This document shows positions 4,743 to 15,814 of a stretch of 64,000 bases of DNA, in pieces (positions within the stretch are counted from its first letter, which is position 1; each line of letters begins with the position of its first letter). The position numbers and the translations under genes are program-made. Source of the stretch: Selenomonadales bacterium (GTDB taxonomy: Bacteria > Bacillota > Negativicutes > Sporomusales > UBA7701); the NCBI GenBank assembly GCA_018434945.1, contig JAHDOI010000047.1, forward strand, positions 1 through 64,000, in the 5' to 3' direction. The notes under the pieces were generated by a model. It searched no databases and was not told the DNA's origin. It saw only the letters and a list, made by a program, of their open reading frames with translations.

Positions 4743-5282
4743 TCACCGGTCTTGGATATTTGATAACGGGGGAGCCTTTTCCGTCATTTCCAATACATAA
4801 GCTGCCATCGTCGCAGCCCTATCGGCTAACGCGAGTATTCCGGCCGGATCCACCGGACTTTTGCCGCCGTCCACGACAAAAATGCCTTCACGGTTGGTCA
4901 GGACAGGGCAAAACTGATTGGTAGCCACGGATCCATAGTCGTTCAGCGCGATGCGTAATAAAGCGGCGATACGGGACAGTTCGGCCTCCTGCCCGCCTTC
5001 AACTGTTAGGATTACCGCTCCCGCGCTTATTTGAACTAGCGGTTGCCCAGGCTTAACCGGCCCGATATTGGCAGTAAAATTGCCGACCTCACCCCGGACA
5101 CTGATCAACTCGGCTTGCCTAAAGATTTGGATGTTGGGATGACATAGCTCTTTAAGAGCATCTGCCACCGCGGAGGACGATGAAAACGGGACAAGCGTCA
5201 CCATATGGCCTTGGTCCGCCAGTAGCCTTGCCACACGAAGCCCCGCATCCACTGCACCTAAAACAAGCGCCATATTTTTCAT
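4743..5282 (-). CDS. Small HdrA-like Rossmann-fold nucleotide-binding protein
   Basis: A 179-residue protein with an N-terminal dinucleotide-binding fold resembling the start of HdrA-type flavoproteins (VLGAVDAGLRVARLLADQGH; compare VLVLGGGIAGMQAALDLAGG in the hdrA of this operon). A GNFTANIG segment is comparable to GRFTARV of HdrA. There are no iron-sulfur cysteine motifs, and the GxGxxG is degenerate (GAVDAG), so FAD or NAD binding is uncertain. It overlaps the amidohydrolase stop (ATGA, 5279-5282), so it is translationally coupled as the last gene of the long methyl-branch operon. Function is unknown; it may bind or dock with the Hdr complex. Confidence 0.55.
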   Translation of the reverse strand: MKNMALVLGAVDAGLRVARLLADQGHMVTLVPFSSSSAVADALKELCHPNIQIFRQAELISVRGEVGNFTANIGPVKPGQPLVQISAGAVILTVEGGQEAELSRIAALLRIALNDYGSVATNQFCPVLTNREGIFVVDGGKSPVDPAGILALADRAATMAAYVLEMTEKAPPLSNIQDR

Positions 5283-6527: not shown

Positions 6528-7481
6528 TCAGTCGATAACAGGCCGCGCGTGCAGCCCGGCGCGGGTAACAATCTCCGGCAGGACGGCTTCCCAACTTACC
6601 GGCATGATGTGAATTCCCTTTACCCCGGCAATATTCCTGAGCTTGCCGATCAGCTCGACGGCGATGGCTTTACCCTCTTCCTGCTGGTTTTCCGCTTTTG
6701 CCATCCGTTCGATAAGCTCGTCTGGTACGCTGATGCCGGCCACATTTTCCTTCATATATTTTAAGGCTCGCAACGACTTCACGGGTATGACCCCGGCCAT
6801 GATATTCACCCGCTGGTCGAGGCCGGCACTGCGCACAAGGCTCATCCAGTGCGCGAACTGCTCGACATCGAATATGGCCTGAGTCTGGATGAACTGGGCC
6901 CCGGCCCGGACCTTTTTGGCCAGCCGCATCACCCTCAGTTCAAGCGGGTCGCCGAAGGGGCTTTCGACCGCGCCGATATAAAAACGCGGTTCGTCTTTCA
7001 TCTCCTCGCCGCTCAGCATCCTCTTCTCGTCGCGCATCATCTTTACCAGGGCGATGAGCTGGATGGAATCAATGTCGAAGACATTTTTGGCGGACGGGTG
7101 ATTGCCGAAGGATTGATGATCGCCGCTCAGGCAGAGCACATCGCGGATCCCCAGGCTATAAGCCCCCAGCAGATCGCTCTGGATAGCGATCCGGTTCCGG
7201 TCCCGGCAGGTCATCTGCATAATGGGGTTGCCGCCGTGCCGCAGGATATGCACTGCGCCGGCGATGCTGGAGAGCCTGACGACGGCGCTTTGGTTGTCGG
7301 TAATATTAAACCCGTCGCAATATGTTTTGGATTCCGCGGTGTGGTGAATTATACTGTCCGCCGACGCGCCTTTTTGCGGGCCGATCTCCGAGGTAACGAC
7401 AAATTCGCCCCTGGCAAACAACTTTTCCAGTTTGCTTTCCGTCGTAAACTTCCGCCCGTCCTGTGTTGCCGGGTCACTCAT
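6528..7481 (-). CDS. metF: Methylenetetrahydrofolate reductase, catalytic subunit
   Basis: Reduces methylene-THF to methyl-THF, the last step of the methyl branch, with FMN/FAD in a TIM barrel. Family motifs include FVVTSEIGPQKGASADSI at the N terminus, DGFNITDNQSAVVR, the CLSGDHQS loop, and a PRFYIGAVESPFGDP stretch. It is about 317 residues, a normal MetF length. ATG 7481 overlaps the metV stop as ATGA; the longer open frame upstream is an artefact of metV. Order mvhD-metV-metF after hdrCBA matches the MetFV-HdrABC-MvhD complex known from Moorella, where MetF works with the iron-sulfur/zinc subunit MetV rather than as a free NAD(P)H enzyme. Confidence 0.93.
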   Translation of the reverse strand: MSDPATQDGRKFTTESKLEKLFARGEFVVTSEIGPQKGASADSIIHHTAESKTYCDGFNITDNQSAVVRLSSIAGAVHILRHGGNPIMQMTCRDRNRIAIQSDLLGAYSLGIRDVLCLSGDHQSFGNHPSAKNVFDIDSIQLIALVKMMRDEKRMLSGEEMKDEPRFYIGAVESPFGDPLELRVMRLAKKVRAGAQFIQTQAIFDVEQFAHWMSLVRSAGLDQRVNIMAGVIPVKSLRALKYMKENVAGISVPDELIERMAKAENQQEEGKAIAVELIGKLRNIAGVKGIHIMPVSWEAVLPEIVTRAGLHARPVID

Positions 7482-8146
7482 AGGAGCACATCCTCCCTTA
7501 CATACTTGCGGGGGCCGCCGTCGCGGGCTTTCGACCAGTCCTTCACCGGAAAGATCTCGCCCAGTGCGGCTTCTCTGCCTTGGCGCTTCAGCTGTCCATA
7601 GATAAGCGTCCAGGCGCACGGGGTGTCCGGGTTGACTTCGCATTTGCCGCCCTGCGAGCCGCCGCACGGACCATTGAGGATGCTCTTCGAACAACGAATG
7701 ATCGGACAGATGCCGCCGGTTTGGGCCAGGATACACTCGCCGCAGAGGGCGCAGCGCTCCTCCCAGATGCCGTGTTCGGTCGTGCCACCGATAAACTTCG
7801 TATTCTGAGCCGGAATGATAACCTTGTCCGGATAGCGCTCAGCCAGATACTGGACGCCCACTCCGCAGGCCAGCGACACTACGCAGTCGGCCGCCTGCAC
7901 TTTTTCCGCAAGCTTGTCGACATACTCTTTGTCGCACTGGCGCTCCAGCGTTTCTGTCGCCGTATCGATGGGTGTGCCATCTTTTTTCCGCAGAATCCGC
8001 AGGCTGGTGGCCAGAATATCCACTTCTTTCTGGCCGCCGGACAAGCATACGGTTACACAGCCCCCACAACCGACAACAAGTACCTTTTGGGCGTCCTTGA
8101 TATTTTCCGCTATCTCGGTCAATGGCTTTTGTTCGGCGACGATCAT
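7478..8146 (-). CDS. metV: MetV, iron-sulfur partner of methylene-THF reductase
   Basis: The 222-residue C-terminal-type MetV protein that forms the electron-input subunit of acetogen MTHFR. It shows a Cys-rich beginning (VVGCGGCVTVCLSGGQ) and CALCGECILAQTGGICPI, followed by CSKSILNGPCGG and C-rich KCEVNPDTPCAW, which supply iron-sulfur and zinc ligands. It starts at ATG 8146, which overlaps the mvhD stop (8143-8146) and is coupled to metF at its own end by ATGA. The tight coupling of hdrA, mvhD, metV and metF argues for a stoichiometric complex. Confidence 0.92.
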   Translation of the reverse strand: MIVAEQKPLTEIAENIKDAQKVLVVGCGGCVTVCLSGGQKEVDILATSLRILRKKDGTPIDTATETLERQCDKEYVDKLAEKVQAADCVVSLACGVGVQYLAERYPDKVIIPAQNTKFIGGTTEHGIWEERCALCGECILAQTGGICPIIRCSKSILNGPCGGSQGGKCEVNPDTPCAWTLIYGQLKRQGREAALGEIFPVKDWSKARDGGPRKYVREDVLL

Positions 8147-8589
8147 GCATCTTCACCATCTTTCTCTGTCTGGCTATGAGCCTTGTTCAAAGGGCTCGGC
8201 CCCAGCGCCCGGATGCGCTCGGTCATCTCGTTGGCGATTTCCGCGAACCGCGGCCCCATCGCGCTCGACAAGTTAAACATTTCCAGCCGGTCGCCGCCAA
8301 TGCCCAGTTCGTCGAGGAGTTTTTTGACATATTCCACCCGCTTGCGGGCTCTGATATTGCCTTTGAGGTAATGGCAGTCGCCCTCCATGCAGCCGGCGAC
8401 ATAGACGCCGTCCGCCCCTTCCTCGAAGGCGGTGAGCAGCATGTTATGCTCGATCTTGCCTGAGCAAGGAAGCTCGATCATCCGGATGCTGGCCGGATAC
8501 TGCAGGCGCATGGAGCCGGCCAGATCGGCCGCCGAGTATGCGCAATAGTAGCAGCAGAAAGCGATTATCCTCGGCTCGAAAGTACTCAC
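8143..8589 (-). CDS. mvhD: MvhD-type electron-transfer subunit
   Basis: A 148-residue MvhD/FlpD-family protein that carries a [2Fe-2S] cluster and links HdrA to an electron donor or acceptor. Cysteines at IIAFCCYYCAYSAADLAG, ELPCSGKIEH and VAGCMEGDCHYLKGN match the family. The start is GTG 8589, which overlaps the hdrA stop (GTGA). In Hdr complexes MvhD contacts the C-terminal HdrA half; here it precedes metV, so it probably bridges the Hdr module and MetFV. Confidence 0.93.
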   Translation of the reverse strand: MSTFEPRIIAFCCYYCAYSAADLAGSMRLQYPASIRMIELPCSGKIEHNMLLTAFEEGADGVYVAGCMEGDCHYLKGNIRARKRVEYVKKLLDELGIGGDRLEMFNLSSAMGPRFAEIANEMTERIRALGPSPLNKAHSQTEKDGEDA

Positions 8590-11500
8590 AACGACACCTC
8601 CTTGAACAGCCCGCGAATCTTGTCAAGCACCTGGTGGTCTTTGTAGTGTTGAAGCTGGATCGCTTTGTTCGGGCATTCGCCGGCGCAGCTGCCGCAGCCA
8701 TGGCACTGGACAGGCTCGATGTATGCCTTCCAGGAGGCGTCGATGCGGGGCACGCTGTAAGGGCAGATGCGGACACAGGTCAGGCAGGCGGCGCATTTGT
8801 CCTGCTCGACGGTGGCGACCACCCCGCCGGCCATCAGGTTGTCCCGGGAAAGGATGGTGGCTGCGCGGGCGACCGCGCCCTGAGCCTGGCAGATAGATTC
8901 GTCGACCGATTTTGGCGAATGGGCGCCGCCGCAAAGATAGATGCCCTGGGTGGGGAAGTCGATCGGCCCCAGCTTGGCGTGGGTTTCCACGAAGAAGCCT
9001 TCTTCGTTGACCGGCACCTTGAGGAGCATGCCGAGCGCCCGTGACGTATCCGAAGGGACGGTGCCCGGAGCCAGCACTACCAGATCGGGATTTACGGTAA
9101 TAATGGTTTTAAGGCTTTGCTCATAGATGTCGCAGCGGAGGCTGTCGCCGTCCCTGGTAACGACCGGCTTGCGGTCGGGTGTGTAAAGGATGAAGTTGAT
9201 GCCTTTGGCGCGCGCTTCCTTATAGAGTTTCTCCGCGAAACCGTAGGTGCGAATGTCCCGGTAAAGGATGAAGATGTCGGTGCCTGGCTGCCGCTCTTTG
9301 AGGGCGATGGCATTCTTCAGGGCCTGACCGCAACAGGTGCGGCTGCAGTAATTGAGCTCGTCGTTGCGGGAGCCGGCGCACTGGATCATGACAATTTGCC
9401 TGGCGGCCAGCGGCTGACCGGCAGCCACCATCTTTTCGAAGGCGGTGGTGGTAACGACCCTGGAATCTTCGCCGCACAAATAGCCTGTCGGCAGTCGTTC
9501 CTGGACGCCGGTGGCGACGATTACCGCGCCATGATCGATACTGGTTTCCGCCCCGGTTCGCCGGGCGCGGATTGTTGTCACGAAATGTCCGGCATGACCG
9601 GAGAAGCCCACTACCTCGCTGCCGGTAAAGACCTTGACCAACGGGTGACTCTCTGCGTCGGCGATTAGCTGGCGCAGGCGGGACTGGACGTCGTTGCCAT
9701 CAAAGTCCCGATACACTTCGCGGGCGTGGCCGCCCAGCTCGGCTTCCTTCTCCACGATGTAGGCGGCGAAGCCCTGGCGGGCCGCAGACAGCGCGGCAGT
9801 CATCCCGGCGACGCCGCCGCCGATGACCAAAAGCGAGTTGATAACCGGGACGGAATGCAGGTGAAGCGCCTCGTGGCGCCTAACCTTGGCCACCGCCATC
9901 CGGACGAGGTCTTTGGCCTTTTCGGTGGCGTTCGCCGGTTCGCCGCGGTGGACCCACGAGCACTGGTCGCGGATATTGGCCATTTCGAAGTAGAACTGGT
10001 TAAGACCGGCCGCCCGCAGCATTTCTCGGAAAAGCGGCTGATGGGTCCTCATGGTGCAGGAGGCTACCACCACGCGATTGAGCTGCTTCTCCCTGATTAT
10101 TTCTTCCATTCGTTTAAGCGTATCCTGAGAGCAGGTGTAAAGATTATCCTGGCAATGGATCACGCCGGGCAGCTTCTGGGCATAGGCGACAACCTCGGGG
10201 ACACTGACAACCGAGGCGATGTTGATGCCGCATTCGCAGACGAATATGCCGATCCGCGGCTCTTCCATACTGACGTCCCGTTCCGGCGGATAGACCTTCT
10301 CCCGTTTCAAGGTGTTGCGGGCGTCGGTCAGCAGTTCGCCGGCCTTGGCGGCAGCGGCACTGGCGCTCACCACCGTTTCGGGGATATCCCGCGGCCCCTG
10401 GAAGGCCCCCGCGACATAAACACCGGCGCGGCTGGTTTCCGTCGGGCTGAACGGGGCGGTGGCGGCAAAGCCGTAGGGGTTGGCCTCGATGCCCGCGGCA
10501 GCCATGAGTTCGGCCACCTGTTGCGGCGGGCGGACCCCGACGGCCAGGACGACGAGGTCGAACTCCTCGTCGACGATTTCCCCGGTCTCGTTTATGTATT
10601 TAAGAAACAGGTTGCCGGTTACCGGGTCTTCCTTGACGGTCGAGATCATGGTCCGCACGTAGCGGACGCCGCCCCGCTGGGCGGCTTCGACGTATTTATC
10701 GAAATTTTTGCCGTAGGAGCGCATATCGAGGTAGAAGATGGTCGGCTCGATGCCGGCGTCATGTTCGCGGGCGATAAGCGCTTCCTTGGTTGAGTACATG
10801 CAGCAAATGGACGAGCAGTATTCGGCTCCCCCGTCGGCGCACTCCCGCGAGCCGACACACTGGATGAAAGCCACCTTGCGAGGGGCGGCCTGGTCCGACG
10901 GGCGCACGACATGCCCGGTCGTCGGCCCGGTCGACGACAACAGCCGCTCGAATTCGAGACTGCTGATAACATTCGGGTAGACGCCGTAGCCGTATTCGCC
11001 CCTTAGGGCGGCGTCGTAGATATCAAAGCCGGGGGCGAGCACTACAGCGCCCACCGGAAGGTCAACCGCCTCGTCGGCGTCTGCATGGCGAATAACCTGT
11101 TTTTTGCACACCTTTTCGCACTGGAGGCATTCGGAACAGATGCCGCAGTTAAGGCACCGGTTAGCCTCCTCTATCGCAACTTCCCTGGTCATGCCCAGCG
11201 CCACTTCCCGATAGTCGGCGGCGCGGTCGGCGGCGGGCGCGAAGCGCTGCGGCCGGCGGGTCGCCGGGCTGACGGGCGTATCTGCCGGTTGGCCGATTTT
11301 TCCCGGTAAGGACTTTTCGCGTCCGGCGTCTAGCGGGCTGGCATTGAGGTATCTATCTATAGATATGGCGGCTTCGTGAGCGCTGGCCACCGCTTCGATC
11401 ACCGAGGCCGGACCGTGGGCGATGTCGCCGCAGGCGAAAATCCGGGCGTCGCCGGTCGCCTTGGTGATGGGGTCGGCGGCGATTATTCCTCTGGCCGTAG

Positions 11501-13019
11501 CCACAGCATCCTGTCCGCGGAGGAAATCAAGGTCGGCTGCCTGGCCGATGGCCATGATGACGGTGTCCGCTTCCAGGAGCAGCGAACACGTTTCGTCGTA
11601 CTGAGGATTGAAGCGCTTCTCGTCATCGAACACCGCCGCGCAGGCTCTGAATTCAACGGCGCTTACCCTGCCGTCGCCGCTGCCGGCGATGCGGCGGGGG
11701 CCCCAGCCGGGGTGAAGAATTACCCCCTCGTCCTCGGCTTCTTCGATCTCCCATACATGGGCCGGCATCTCGTCCCGCGACTCCAGGCAGACGACATGCA
11801 CTTCCTGCCCGCCCTGGCGCTTGGCCGACCGGGCCACGTCCATGGCTACGTTGCCGCCGCCGATAACGACTACCTTTTTGCCAACCCGGGAATCGTTGCC
11901 CAGCTTGATGTCGCGCAGAAACCCGACGCCCGGCAGAACGCCCGCCAGCCCGGCGCCTTCAATGGGCAGGTCGCGGCTTTTCTGGACGCCGGCGGCGACA
12001 AGGATAGCATCGTACTGCGACTTTATTTCATCGAGGGTAATGTCGGTCCCGACCCTGGTGTTGACGCGCACCTCGATACCATGCCTCAGCAGGTTATCGA
12101 TTTCCCGCTGGACGATTTCCGCCGGCAGCCGGTATTGGGGAATGCCGTATTTCAACCAGCCGCCCGGACTGGGTAACGCTTCGAAGATGGTGACGCGGTA
12201 GCCTTTGGCGACAAGGTCATAAGCGGCCGTCAGGCCCGCCGGACCGCCGCCGATAATGGCTACTCTCTCTTTGCGGGTCGGGGCGAGAGGCGGGTTTTCG
12301 GCTTTTGTAAGATCGTCCCAGCCATAGTCGGCCGCCGCCCGTTTGATGGCGGCGATAGCCAGCGGCTCGTCGATCTCCCGGCGGTTGCACTCCGTTTCGC
12401 AGGGATGATGGCAGATGCGGCCGCAGATACCGGCAAAGGGCAGGCGACGGTGGATAACCTCCAGCGCCTCGGCAAATTTCCCCTGCGAAACCAAGGCGAC
12501 ATAGCCCTGGACGTTGGTGCCGGCCGGGCAAGTCTGGCGGCACGGCGGGGTCCCGCGCTTGTCGATCATGTACCGGTTAGGCACCGACTGCGGGAATAGT
12601 TTGTATATCGCTTTCCGGGTGCCCATCCCCTGGTTGAAGCTGTCCTTGACTTTTACCGGGCAGGCGTCGGCGCAGTCGCCGCAGGCCGTGCATTCGTCGA
12701 TATCGACGTACCTGGCGTTTTTACGCACGCGGGCGGTGAACCGGCCCGCCTCTCCCTCAAGGCCGTACATTTGTGAGTTGGTATGGATAATGATATTGGG
12801 GTGGTTCAGGCAGTCGCTCATCTTGGGCCCAAGCAGGCACATCGAGCATTCGTTCGTCGGGAAGGTTTTGTCGAGCTGGGCCATCTTCCCGCCGATGGAT
12901 GGTTCGTCGGTAACCATGTGAACAAGATAGCCGCCGCCCGCAAGGTCGAGAGCCGCTTGCATGCCGGCGATGCCGCCGCCAAGAACGAGGACGGAGCCTG
13001 TCGCATCGGTGTTTGCCAT
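8586..13019 (-). CDS. hdrA: Giant HdrA: split HdrA, embedded NfnB/GltD module, second complete HdrA
   Basis: A 1477-residue flavo-iron-sulfur protein, versus about 650 for a simple HdrA. Order: HdrA N-terminal FAD fold with GGGIAG (14-19) and NECSMC (57-61); 4Fe-4S CTACGDCADACP (110-121); a GltD/NfnB-like module about 155-560, with helical Fe-S Cys (CRQTCPAG, CGRICHHPCETEC), FAD fold GGGPAG (258-263), second Rossmann GGGNVAMD (387-394) and the FACGD motif; CLNCGICSECLQCEKVC (622-638); the rest of the first HdrA (about 640-905); then a complete HdrA from about 920 (FVCECGINIA, SCTMRTHQPLF, CSWVH, GGGVAG) ending in two 4Fe-4S motifs (CAACLTCVRICP, CHGCGSCAGECP). ATG 13019 has a GGGGAG SD. Likely the electron hub of the MetFV-HdrABC-MvhD complex, with an extra NAD(P)H/flavin site. 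Confidence 0.93.
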   Translation of the reverse strand: MANTDATGSVLVLGGGIAGMQAALDLAGGGYLVHMVTDEPSIGGKMAQLDKTFPTNECSMCLLGPKMSDCLNHPNIIIHTNSQMYGLEGEAGRFTARVRKNARYVDIDECTACGDCADACPVKVKDSFNQGMGTRKAIYKLFPQSVPNRYMIDKRGTPPCRQTCPAGTNVQGYVALVSQGKFAEALEVIHRRLPFAGICGRICHHPCETECNRREIDEPLAIAAIKRAAADYGWDDLTKAENPPLAPTRKERVAIIGGGPAGLTAAYDLVAKGYRVTIFEALPSPGGWLKYGIPQYRLPAEIVQREIDNLLRHGIEVRVNTRVGTDITLDEIKSQYDAILVAAGVQKSRDLPIEGAGLAGVLPGVGFLRDIKLGNDSRVGKKVVVIGGGNVAMDVARSAKRQGGQEVHVVCLESRDEMPAHVWEIEEAEDEGVILHPGWGPRRIAGSGDGRVSAVEFRACAAVFDDEKRFNPQYDETCSLLLEADTVIMAIGQAADLDFLRGQDAVATARGIIAADPITKATGDARIFACGDIAHGPASVIEAVASAHEAAISIDRYLNASPLDAGREKSLPGKIGQPADTPVSPATRRPQRFAPAADRAADYREVALGMTREVAIEEANRCLNCGICSECLQCEKVCKKQVIRHADADEAVDLPVGAVVLAPGFDIYDAALRGEYGYGVYPNVISSLEFERLLSSTGPTTGHVVRPSDQAAPRKVAFIQCVGSRECADGGAEYCSSICCMYSTKEALIAREHDAGIEPTIFYLDMRSYGKNFDKYVEAAQRGGVRYVRTMISTVKEDPVTGNLFLKYINETGEIVDEEFDLVVLAVGVRPPQQVAELMAAAGIEANPYGFAATAPFSPTETSRAGVYVAGAFQGPRDIPETVVSASAAAAKAGELLTDARNTLKREKVYPPERDVSMEEPRIGIFVCECGINIASVVSVPEVVAYAQKLPGVIHCQDNLYTCSQDTLKRMEEIIREKQLNRVVVASCTMRTHQPLFREMLRAAGLNQFYFEMANIRDQCSWVHRGEPANATEKAKDLVRMAVAKVRRHEALHLHSVPVINSLLVIGGGVAGMTAALSAARQGFAAYIVEKEAELGGHAREVYRDFDGNDVQSRLRQLIADAESHPLVKVFTGSEVVGFSGHAGHFVTTIRARRTGAETSIDHGAVIVATGVQERLPTGYLCGEDSRVVTTTAFEKMVAAGQPLAARQIVMIQCAGSRNDELNYCSRTCCGQALKNAIALKERQPGTDIFILYRDIRTYGFAEKLYKEARAKGINFILYTPDRKPVVTRDGDSLRCDIYEQSLKTIITVNPDLVVLAPGTVPSDTSRALGMLLKVPVNEEGFFVETHAKLGPIDFPTQGIYLCGGAHSPKSVDESICQAQGAVARAATILSRDNLMAGGVVATVEQDKCAACLTCVRICPYSVPRIDASWKAYIEPVQCHGCGSCAGECPNKAIQLQHYKDHQVLDKIRGLFKEVSL

Positions 13020-13024
13020 ATGTG

Positions 13025-13891
13025 TCACTCCCCTTTCGCCAGCGCCGCAAGCACCGGAGCGGGATCGATGATATGCTTTTGCAGCCACCGACCTGACGCG
13101 TCGGCGCCGAACGCCACACCCATAAGTTCGGTGAAATAGAATATGGGCATAGGCCGGGCTATCTGGTTCTGGCGTGTGTCGAGGTTGACCTGGCATAAAG
13201 GACACGCGGAAACGATGGCCTGCGCGCCGGCCCTCTCAGCTTCTGTGACCAGCTTGGCAACCAGGGTAGCCACCGCGGCGGTCTGCGAAAGCGCCAAAGC
13301 GCCGCCGCAGCAGTCGGTCTTATACGACCAGCTTTTTACTTCGGCGCCGAGAGCTGTGAGTATTTTATCCATAGTCGTGGGGCGTTCGGGATTGTCGAAG
13401 GCCACGACGTTTTTCGGCCTGGTCAATAAACAGCCGTAATAGGTTACCAGCCGCAACCCCATGAGCGGTCGAACGACTTTTGCGCTTATTTCCCGCAGCA
13501 TTTCCCAGCTGCCCAGTACCTCTAAGGGATGCCGGACCTGGATGGTTGCCCCGTACTTCGCTCCCATGATTTCTTCCAGGTCGGCGTTAATTGTCATGGC
13601 CTGGCCGTCCCGCCCGCGAACGGCGTGGTCGGCGGTTTTGAGCGTGTTGTAACAGGCGGCGCATGGCGCCATGACATCGTGGCCGGCCTGCTCCGCCAGG
13701 ATGAGGTTGCGCATCGGCAGGGCCACAGCCAGAAAGTGGTTGGTCGCATGGGCGCACGAGGCTCCGCAGCAGTTCCAGTCGTTTAGCTCGGCCAGTTCCA
13801 CGCCGAGCGTTCTGCACACAAAACAAGTGGAGTCGTCATACCCGGCGGCGGTCGAATGGAGGGAGCAGCCGGGGTAATAAGTCAATTTCAT
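13025..13891 (-). CDS. hdrB: Heterodisulfide reductase-like subunit B
   Basis: A 288-residue HdrB with two CCG domains. These bind the pair of non-cubane [4Fe-4S] clusters that act as the catalytic site in HdrB proteins. Visible motifs: YYPGCSLHSTA at the N terminus, NDWNCCGASCAH and APCAACYNTL in the first repeat, then YYGCLL, KTDCCGGA and SACPLCQVNLD in the second. Coupled to hdrC by ATGA (13888-13891), with only 5 bases to hdrA. In an acetogen lacking coenzyme M/B it is unlikely to reduce a methanogenic heterodisulfide; it serves the MetFV complex. Confidence 0.94.
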   Translation of the reverse strand: MKLTYYPGCSLHSTAAGYDDSTCFVCRTLGVELAELNDWNCCGASCAHATNHFLAVALPMRNLILAEQAGHDVMAPCAACYNTLKTADHAVRGRDGQAMTINADLEEIMGAKYGATIQVRHPLEVLGSWEMLREISAKVVRPLMGLRLVTYYGCLLTRPKNVVAFDNPERPTTMDKILTALGAEVKSWSYKTDCCGGALALSQTAAVATLVAKLVTEAERAGAQAIVSACPLCQVNLDTRQNQIARPMPIFYFTELMGVAFGADASGRWLQKHIIDPAPVLAALAKGE

Positions 13892-14445
13892 ATGACCGCC
13901 TCCCTGGCTTTACGGAAAATCCGCTTAATTTCCCCTGCCCGCTTGATTCGGTCGGGCAACAGTTTCAGTTTGTTTTTGGCCACAAACTTGAGCCCCAGCG
14001 CAAGGTCCTGGGTGAAGGACGCTGTTTTCAGCTTGAACAGGCCGATGGTTCCCGCTTCATAGGAGCGCCCGAACTGCTCCACCGTGGCCAGGAAAGACTG
14101 ATGAAACGCCGCTGTTCTGGGCTCGCCGGCTTTTTTCCCGCTCGCCAGCGCCATCTCCCGCAGCACGTCGTTGATTTTGGAGATGTCGATGCCGTTGGGA
14201 CACCTGGCCCCGCAGGTCCTGCAACCAATGCAGAGCCAAATGGTGTTACTCCCCAGAACCGCTTCTTTTTCCCCATATTTGATCATCTTCAGCAGGTCAC
14301 AGTTGTATGGTTGCATGGCAAAGCTCATCGGGCAGCCGCCGGCGCACTTCTTGCACTGGTAACACAGACTGACCGGTTGCCCCGACCTGGCTTCAATTTC
14401 CTCTAAAAACGCAAGGGCTGGGGCTATGTTCGCACCTGTCGCCAT
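13888..14445 (-). CDS. hdrC: Heterodisulfide reductase-like subunit C
   Basis: A 185-residue iron-sulfur protein with two [4Fe-4S] ferredoxin motifs: CYQCKKCAGGCP near residue 28 and CIGCRTCGARCP near residue 72. It relays electrons between HdrA and HdrB. ATG 14445 is preferred over the one five codons upstream because GGAGG lies just before it at the right distance. It is the first Hdr gene after the MFS carrier and overlaps hdrB. Confidence 0.92.
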   Translation of the reverse strand: MATGANIAPALAFLEEIEARSGQPVSLCYQCKKCAGGCPMSFAMQPYNCDLLKMIKYGEKEAVLGSNTIWLCIGCRTCGARCPNGIDISKINDVLREMALASGKKAGEPRTAAFHQSFLATVEQFGRSYEAGTIGLFKLKTASFTQDLALGLKFVAKNKLKLLPDRIKRAGEIKRIFRKAREAVI

Positions 14446-14488
14446 AAAGCCTCCAATCATACCACGCCGCCACTCGATACACCGGTTC

Positions 14489-15814
14489 CTATTCTACTAC
14501 GGCAATTTCCTTCAGCGGCAGCTTGGGCACAAATCTTTTGTTACTCAGGATAAAGGTGATAAACAGACCGGCCAGCAGCAGGACTGAAGCGGTTACGAAC
14601 GTATACTGGGCCGCCTGGCCGGCATAATTATCTTTCAGGAACGCCACGATCTGGGGACCGACGATCCCGGCCAAACCCCACGCCGTGAGAATGCTGCCGT
14701 ATACGACCGGCATTTGCCTGGGGCCGAAAACGTCGAGCACAAAGGAGGGCATCGAGCCGAAACCGCCCCCGTAGCACAGCAGCACATAGCATACCAAAAC
14801 GCTGAAAAGCAGCGGGGTCTTGATGAATAACAATGCCAGGAAAACGGCGACCTGGCTGCCGATAATGAGGCGGAATGTCTGGACACGCCCGATTTTATCA
14901 GACAGTCCGCCCCAGAAAAAACGGCCCAGCCCGTTAAAAACCGAACTCACGGCAATCAGTGTCGCCCCGGACGCGGCAAGATCGGCTAATACCCTGGGAT
15001 CATTCAGTAACGCCGGCTCGACGGATTCCTTCAAGAGGTCCTGCAGCAGGGGCGACTGGAAGCTGATGAACATGATCCCGGCAATTATATTGAGGAAGAA
15101 TACCGCCCACATCAGGGCAAATTTTCCGGAGAATACACACTCTTTGGCGGTGATGCCGGCCTGAAGCCCCTGCTCTCCGGCCGACACCGCCGCGATTGAG
15201 TAACTTCGCGGCGCGTAGGCCGTGGGCGGGTTAACCAGAAAGTAGCCTGCCGGCAAGGTAACAACAAGCATTATCACGCCGATATACGAAAATACGCGGA
15301 CAAGATTTCCGCCACTAAAGTCCAGGAAAACCGGCGCCAAGACTTTGGCCATAACGAGCGCCCCTAGGCCGAAACCCATTACCACCATCCCGGTGATGAA
15401 GCCTTTCTTATCGGGAAACCACTTGGCGGCGGTAGCTACCGGCGTCACATAGCCAAGGCCCAGGCCAATGCCGCCGACGACGCCGTAACCGAAGTACAGC
15501 AGCGGAAGGCTTTTTACGCTAAGTGCATAAGCGGCCAATAGATAACCGATGCCGTATAAAAGGCCGCCGGACATTGCCAGTTTCCGTGGCCCGAATTTCG
15601 GCAGATTTACGCCCCCCCAGGCAGCCGCCAGACCTAGGAAGAAAATCGCCAGGCTGAAGGCCCATGCGGCCTGCGAATTAGTCCAGTTTCCCGCAGCCAT
15701 CACCGGCTGTTGGAAAAAACTCCAGGCGTAAACCGTCCCCAGGGCCAGCTGCAGCAGCGTCCCCATAACGGCCACCAGCCACCGGTTTGTTCTTTGTTGT
15801 GCTTCAGGTACCAT
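14489..15814 (-). CDS. OFA-family MFS transporter (oxalate/formate antiporter-like)
   Basis: A 441-residue, 12-helix major facilitator. The N terminus (LQLALGTVYAWSFFQQPV) and the glycine-rich helix GFGLGALVMAKVLAPV resemble the oxalate:formate antiporter (OFA) family. It lies between fhs (13 bases away) and hdrC on the same strand, inside the methyl-branch operon, so a C1 or small monocarboxylate substrate such as formate is a fair inference from context. OFA homologues transport many monocarboxylates, so the substrate is unproven. A second OFA-like carrier occurs at 42.8-44.1 kb. Confidence 0.82.
   Translation of the reverse strand: MVPEAQQRTNRWLVAVMGTLLQLALGTVYAWSFFQQPVMAAGNWTNSQAAWAFSLAIFFLGLAAAWGGVNLPKFGPRKLAMSGGLLYGIGYLLAAYALSVKSLPLLYFGYGVVGGIGLGLGYVTPVATAAKWFPDKKGFITGMVVMGFGLGALVMAKVLAPVFLDFSGGNLVRVFSYIGVIMLVVTLPAGYFLVNPPTAYAPRSYSIAAVSAGEQGLQAGITAKECVFSGKFALMWAVFFLNIIAGIMFISFQSPLLQDLLKESVEPALLNDPRVLADLAASGATLIAVSSVFNGLGRFFWGGLSDKIGRVQTFRLIIGSQVAVFLALLFIKTPLLFSVLVCYVLLCYGGGFGSMPSFVLDVFGPRQMPVVYGSILTAWGLAGIVGPQIVAFLKDNYAGQAAQYTFVTASVLLLAGLFITFILSNKRFVPKLPLKEIAVVE

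Follow-up and report, generated by a model that had tools for sequence, protein, structure and literature searches.

In acetogens with type IV reductases, it is a long-standing question which carrier feeds methylene-THF reduction and whether energy is conserved there. Mock et al. (2014), who first reported the Moorella enzyme, reportedly called its diaphorase activity NAD-specific. The window analysed here, a stretch of 64,000 nucleotides from a Selenomonadales bacterium (contig JAHDOI010000047.1), encodes an HdrA of 1477 residues with a nested GltD-type module, and the question is what this module contributes. We consider it quite likely that the protein serves as HdrA hub in a type IV MTHFR and is orthologous to that of Moorella, that its nested module would act as an NADH port, and that across the family this port would be an exchangeable NADH/NADPH cassette.

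Operon context and anatomy of HdrA

The hdrA ORF (8586..13019, minus strand; ORF, Pfam and phmmer) runs uninterrupted from an ATG at 13019, which is preceded by AAAGGGGAG, to a stop at 8586. It lies in one contiguous minus-strand cluster (6528-14460) with hdrC (13888..14460), hdrB with its CCG domains (13025..13891), mvhD (FlpD, 8143..8589) and metF (MTHFR, 6528..7481), all recognized with Pfam/NCBIfam, and with metV (MTHFR C-terminal domain, 7478..8146), recognized with Pfam. The MetFV-HdrABC-MvhD operon of the first-pass annotation is thereby borne out, as it is by the operon survey described below. Both this gene content and the presence in HdrA of two TrxR-like FAD domains and a C-terminal Fd domain (phmmer, Pfam) are those of a type IV reductase. 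Since fhs and folD are located upstream of hdrC and acetyl-CoA synthase is encoded in the same genome, the Wood-Ljungdahl setting is clear. Between fhs and hdrC, and read in the same direction as these, is an MFS transporter gene of the lactate/oxalate-formate family (14489-15814, minus strand). Downstream of metF, a 179-residue protein (4743-5282, minus strand) is similar to a TrxR domain of HdrA, but shrunken (E-values of 2e-5 by BLAST and 7e-6 with NCBIfam HdrA2).

When compared by phmmer with the solved HdrA of Methanothermococcus (5odc), the query falls into four stretches: residues 918-1091 correspond to HdrA 1-174, residues 7-155 to HdrA 143-291, residues 628-849 to HdrA 293-515 and residues 1340-1475 to HdrA 515-653. 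The protein consists of two HdrA units that complement each other and are joined in tandem. Because of this four-way split, the module can be located exactly between HdrA residues 291 and 293, and it is spliced within the inserted-ferredoxin domain of the first unit. With E-values of about 1e-173 for HdrA and about 1e-102 for a GltD relative (phmmer), chance is excluded.

Along the protein (all coordinates on the minus strand), the N-terminal part of the first TrxR-like (FAD) domain (residues 7-109; 12693..13001), which aligns to 5odc from residue 143 and has C61 as the equivalent of HdrA Cys197, is followed by the first [4Fe-4S] motif of the split inserted-ferredoxin domain, CTACGDCADACP (residues 110-121; 12657..12692; 5odc alignment). 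The latter was correctly placed just before the insert on first pass, and its cysteines are found in 103 of the 103 relatives with letters there; the relatives are a non-redundant set of 104 nested HdrAs. The GltD-type module itself covers residues 156-621 (11157..12554), as defined by Pfam (Fer4_20 at 156-232, Pyr_redox_2 at 251-546), phmmer, the NCBIfam model PRK12771 (534 bits, cut-off 516) and structure matching. It includes the FAD motif GGGPAG (257-262; 12234..12251) and the NAD Rossmann motif GGGNVAMD (387-394; 11838..11861), both read from the sequence and the alignment of relatives. The six-Cys motif RCLNCGICSECLQCEKVC (621-638; 11106..11159) links the end of the module to the second half of the inserted-ferredoxin domain, and all six cysteines are kept in 104 of 104 relatives. 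Beyond it lie the C-terminal part of the first TrxR-like domain (10305..11102; 5odc alignment), the N-terminal HdrA domain of the second unit (918-1055; 9855..10268; phmmer vs 5odc), the second TrxR-like domain (8820..9854; phmmer vs 5odc and relatives) and the C-terminal 2x[4Fe-4S] domain (1401-1457; 8649..8819; Pfam). The E/K signature of bifurcating HdrA flavins (E356/K409 in HdrA) is present in both units, as E691/K745 and E1195/K1235.

An AF2 model of residues 7-912 (pLDDT 85, pTM 0.76) matches 5odc around the insert (Z 47.3, rmsd 2.1, 415 aligned) and, inside the insert, NfnABC (9bov, Z 48.7), StnC (8oh5, Z 47.4) and NfnB (4ylf, Z 37.8). Domain search and structure prediction thus place HdrA around the insert and a GltD-type fold inside it, so that the first-pass description of a GltD/NfnB-like module nested in a tandem HdrA is confirmed. 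The module is also complete, as had been claimed: all FAD, Fe-S and Rossmann motifs are there on alignment. Its extent had been given as about residues 155-560; the start is right but the insert is longer, reaching the six-Cys motif.

The nested architecture itself is not new: it is on record for the Moorella HdrA (PMC9430772) and, from independent work, for archaea (PMC9012536, PMC12054007). According to a study of Sporomusa ovata (PMC9430772), the Moorella thermoacetica HdrA (162.8 kDa, 1487 aa) has two TrxR-like domains, both with the E/K signature, one of which is split by a GltD domain binding [4Fe-4S], FAD and NAD(P)H. In PMC9012536, the tandem HdrA of Moorella was noted along with NfnB-like segments inserted into the ferredoxin domain of HdrA in ANME-1, and a 2025 survey (PMC12054007) named the GltD-inserted archaeal HdrA type III and inferred two insertions. 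The M. thermoacetica protein, which belongs to a type IV or Hdr-type MTHFR, resembles the window protein in length (1487 vs 1477 aa), tandem TrxR domains, GltD interruption of the first, E/K in both and operon content. The HdrA of its congener Moorella stamsii (L044), the best match in a scan of named genomes that covered 80 loci over many phyla, is 62% identical. We see no architectural difference from Moorella, only sequence divergence and host lineage. In contrast, the S. ovata HdrA (Hdr-type MTHFR, 942 aa) shares the operon logic but is without the GltD module and the inserted-ferredoxin domain and has little NADH activity. The type III proteins (HdrA9-11 of ANME-1 and Bathyarchaeota) also carry a GltD/NfnB-like domain within the inserted-ferredoxin domain, as does the window protein; however, they are otherwise single type I-like HdrAs of methane metabolism, described as separate insertion events, whereas the window HdrA has two units in tandem (phmmer). 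The first-pass annotation had named as a refutation that all MetFV-linked HdrAs already described have the module with a known role. This is largely the case, in that the Moorella HdrA was described with the same GltD-interrupted TrxR domain and oxidises NADH.

Function and cofactor of the nested module

The insert takes the place of the site at which ferredoxin docks on ordinary HdrA, and the Moorella complex did not reduce ferredoxin; the 2025 survey argues likewise for archaea (PMC12054007). By its scores of 348 bits to 9bov (NfnABC), 326 to StnC and 262 to NfnB, it is nearer to the NfnABC/StnC type of GltD than to NfnB. The GltD domains of StnC and of the NfnABC large subunit, its closest solved relatives, share with it the lysine at the C7-cluster position and a C-terminal RCLxCG, although they are fused to a NuoG-like part, where the window module is inserted in HdrA, and are of the NADPH type (YRR). 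The lysine is Lys226 (12342..12344), aligned with StnC K170. In StnC this residue is on the proximal cluster, where NfnB has a glutamate, and the StnC FAD was shown to be non-bifurcating (PMC10482914). At this position the 104 relatives have K (90), H (12) or R (2), never E. Elsewhere the relatives show next to no variation at the half-motif ferredoxin cysteines, at R297, in the two glycine-rich motifs or at most cysteines of the module; the exception among the latter is C199, a Cys in 72 of 104.

On this evidence, Lys226 being of the StnC type and the StnC flavin non-bifurcating, and with Leu-Glu standing where NfnB has its NADP-binding arginine pair, we read the module as most likely an NADH-specific relay port rather than the extra bifurcation site that had been put forward as a possibility on first pass. 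In the latter scheme, a second, NfnB-type site would have the module FAD split NADH electrons between ferredoxin and the HdrA FAD. The module does share the fold (Z 37.8), the FAD and Rossmann motifs and the Arg near the flavin N5 with NfnB: R297 is the equivalent of P. furiosus NfnB R201 and is invariant, which leaves an NfnB-like role of the FAD some footing, and two such sites were suggested for archaeal fusions (PMC9012536). But StnC keeps the same Arg and its FAD does not bifurcate, and the Glu cluster ligand, the NADP arginines and the N-terminal RCLQC motif of NfnB are absent from the window module. Furthermore, NfnB has an NfnA partner in its operon and no NfnA gene was seen among the scanned products of the window operon (Pfam/NCBIfam), and the Moorella complex did not reduce ferredoxin. 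A second bifurcation site therefore appears improbable, if not negligibly so.

The choice of nicotinamide cofactor was approached through residues 411-413 (11781..11789), which are Cys-Leu-Glu in the window protein and Tyr-Arg-Arg in NfnB and StnC (alignment); in NfnB, the two arginines bind the extra phosphate of NADP (PMC6405883). Since Y-R-R is replaced by C-L-E, the window port is predicted to be NADH-specific, an assignment that rests on one pair of sequence positions. The NAD(P)H port of the first-pass annotation thus stands as a nicotinamide port, with NADH specificity predicted in place of NAD(P)H. The CLES motif is common to the M. stamsii and window proteins. The alternative, a port for NADPH or for both NADH and NADPH, draws on the GxGxxA motif, which has been read as NADP-type in this family, and on NADP-type modules in further MetFV-linked HdrAs from the core clade of the window protein. 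We hold it to be very unlikely, given that the window protein lacks the two arginines that would hold the 2'-phosphate and that NADH is oxidised by the Moorella HdrA, which has the same residues in their place, while its congener also shows GxGxxA in the Rossmann motif. With NADH oxidised by the one Moorella protein and GxGxxA present in the other, the GxGxxG/GxGxxA distinction, used in PMC12054007 and PMC7483475 to tell NAD from NADP use, was not adopted as a criterion; the NAD and NADP groups are better told apart by the residues that close the second strand. In two relatives (L089 and L118), D-P-F stands in place of Y-R-R or C-L-E and the nucleotide-binding motif is altered (GVGHSGMD, GAAHSGID); these modules may have lost nicotinamide binding.

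The reading as a port rests on the insertion point and the empty sites, on cofactor motifs complete in nearly all 104 relatives, on the StnC-type Lys226 with a StnC/NfnABC-like fold, on E/K at both HdrA FADs and on the recurrence of the operon. A natural comparison also supports it: NADH is oxidised at 190 U/mg (NADH:viologen) by M. thermoacetica HdrA vs 0.5 U/mg by the S. ovata HdrA without GltD (PMC9430772). It counts against an NADH port that NADH-driven methylene-THF reduction has never been shown for the Moorella complex. In the mechanism that we propose, NADH would reduce the module FAD, from which electrons would leave singly via the [4Fe-4S] clusters of the module to those of the inserted-ferredoxin domain and on to a TrxR-type FAD of HdrA. 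Bifurcation or confurcation, if any, would take place at the HdrA FADs, with their E/K signature in both units, and electrons would reach MetVF via MvhD and/or HdrCB, with a second partner.

Two module versions on the HdrA core

Among the 104 relatives, 55 have the NADP-type Y-R-R and 47 an acidic, NAD-type x-L/I-E. The version label changes 18 times on a tree of the HdrA core, from which the module was removed, and 6 times on a module-only tree; both are quick trees with SH-aLRT support only. Modules are unusually dissimilar in pairs of differing version: two Desulfarculaceae HdrAs (L072/L079) share 80% of the core but only 46% of the module, and sisters of the same version agree in core and module (L045/L047, 74% and 74%; L070/L073, 79% and 79%). 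L073 and L102, on the other hand, are 51% identical in the core and 73% in the module. In a two-breakpoint scan, several pairs had the changed segment near the edges of the insert (152-621, 167-620, 156-645), and the gains in likelihood exceed those of 20 block-shuffled nulls per pair; in other pairs the edges were looser, and for L047/L091 the segment is far wider than the module. AU tests, whose p-values are too optimistic because the groups were picked after viewing the trees, reject a single NAD-type clade for the core (p about 1e-109); with module data, it is the core clades that are rejected (p about 6e-6 and 1e-14). The MetFV-linked Bacillota HdrAs to which the window protein belongs form one clade on the core (support 100) but, with the same reservation on the p-value, not on the module (p about 4e-5). 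Among them, families f14 and f7 carry an NADP-type module from another lineage; many rows of the data set are metagenome bins, and these families are seven separate genomes (five f14, two f7).

From this incongruence between module and core we infer, as the more probable course of events, that whole NADH- and NADPH-type modules have been swapped repeatedly between HdrAs, with breakpoints at the module edges, including in the MetFV-linked Bacillota. L040 and L043/L145, in which the version switched without visible module exchange, look like changes in place and count against this. They would fit an accelerated divergence of the module after a cofactor change, which could also account for the NAD(P) subdomain being the least similar part in most mixed pairs. 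Such divergence, however, cannot yield 73% identical modules in 51% identical cores, and core clades are rejected on the module (p about 4e-5 to 1e-14), so that we regard it as an unlikely source of the mismatch between sister HdrAs. No description of GltD module exchange between HdrAs was found in the literature searched, most subscription journals being outside its scope; the two module versions and their exchange as a cassette look new.

What merits further work is the exchange of NADH and NADPH ports across the family. From the module, the predicted carrier is NADH in the window organism and Moorella, and NADPH in the sister branch with the same operon (f14, f7). Since both versions are predicted within the same operon type, a comparison of natural variants offers a test of the carrier question. 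If modules are indeed swapped, acetogens and sulfate reducers that share this reductase operon would draw on different cofactor pools for their methylene-THF chemistry, and exchange of the port as a unit would be a clear natural cofactor switch by module replacement, not by point mutation.

Distribution and variant layouts

In a survey of hdrA in other genomes, the nested architecture recurs: among 299 genomes sampled from the same phylum, about 40 have the full nested protein (row count), and hdrC, hdrB, mvhD, metV and metF surround nested hdrA in most inspected Bacillota loci. Within the order of the window organism, families f1 and f126 have the nested form, and in family f128 metV is accompanied by an HdrA of 948 residues that lacks the module, as published for S. 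ovata. Nested HdrA and MetV were both not found in two of five genomes of the window's genus (G002 and G003, the latter only 87% complete), which suggests that the operon was lost or gained within the genus. Only partial GltD matches were obtained in the plasmid records searched. At three loci (L143, L144, L145), nested HdrA adjoins a tandem HdrA without the module.

GltD modules also occur beside MetVF in other layouts. In a Sporomusa-like genome (G322), a 711-residue GltD module-ferredoxin-MvhD protein is encoded directly before metV and metF, and no HdrA, HdrB or HdrC gene was found beside it at this locus. Family f69 (L176, L178, L180, L182, L185) has the same layout, with C-L-E in its modules. 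These arrangements suggest that a GltD module could feed MetVF without Hdr parts. The compact operon, in which a fusion of about 700 aa is followed by metV and metF (L168:5274-8965 and the five f69 loci), is possibly a stripped-down NADH-dependent methylene-THF reductase. Stand-alone GltD modules with C-L-E or C-I-E are fused to a MetV C-terminal domain in L169:4429-6222, L170:4013-5797 and L171:4776-6611; no metF was found near these fusions.

Finally, 20 nested HdrAs have an in-frame TGA at the Cys197-equivalent position, C61 in the window protein (L051, L055, L056, L060, L067, L074, L078, L080, L083, L088, L089, L091, L097, L098, L102, L105, L110, L118, L121 and L123), where the codon probably specifies selenocysteine.
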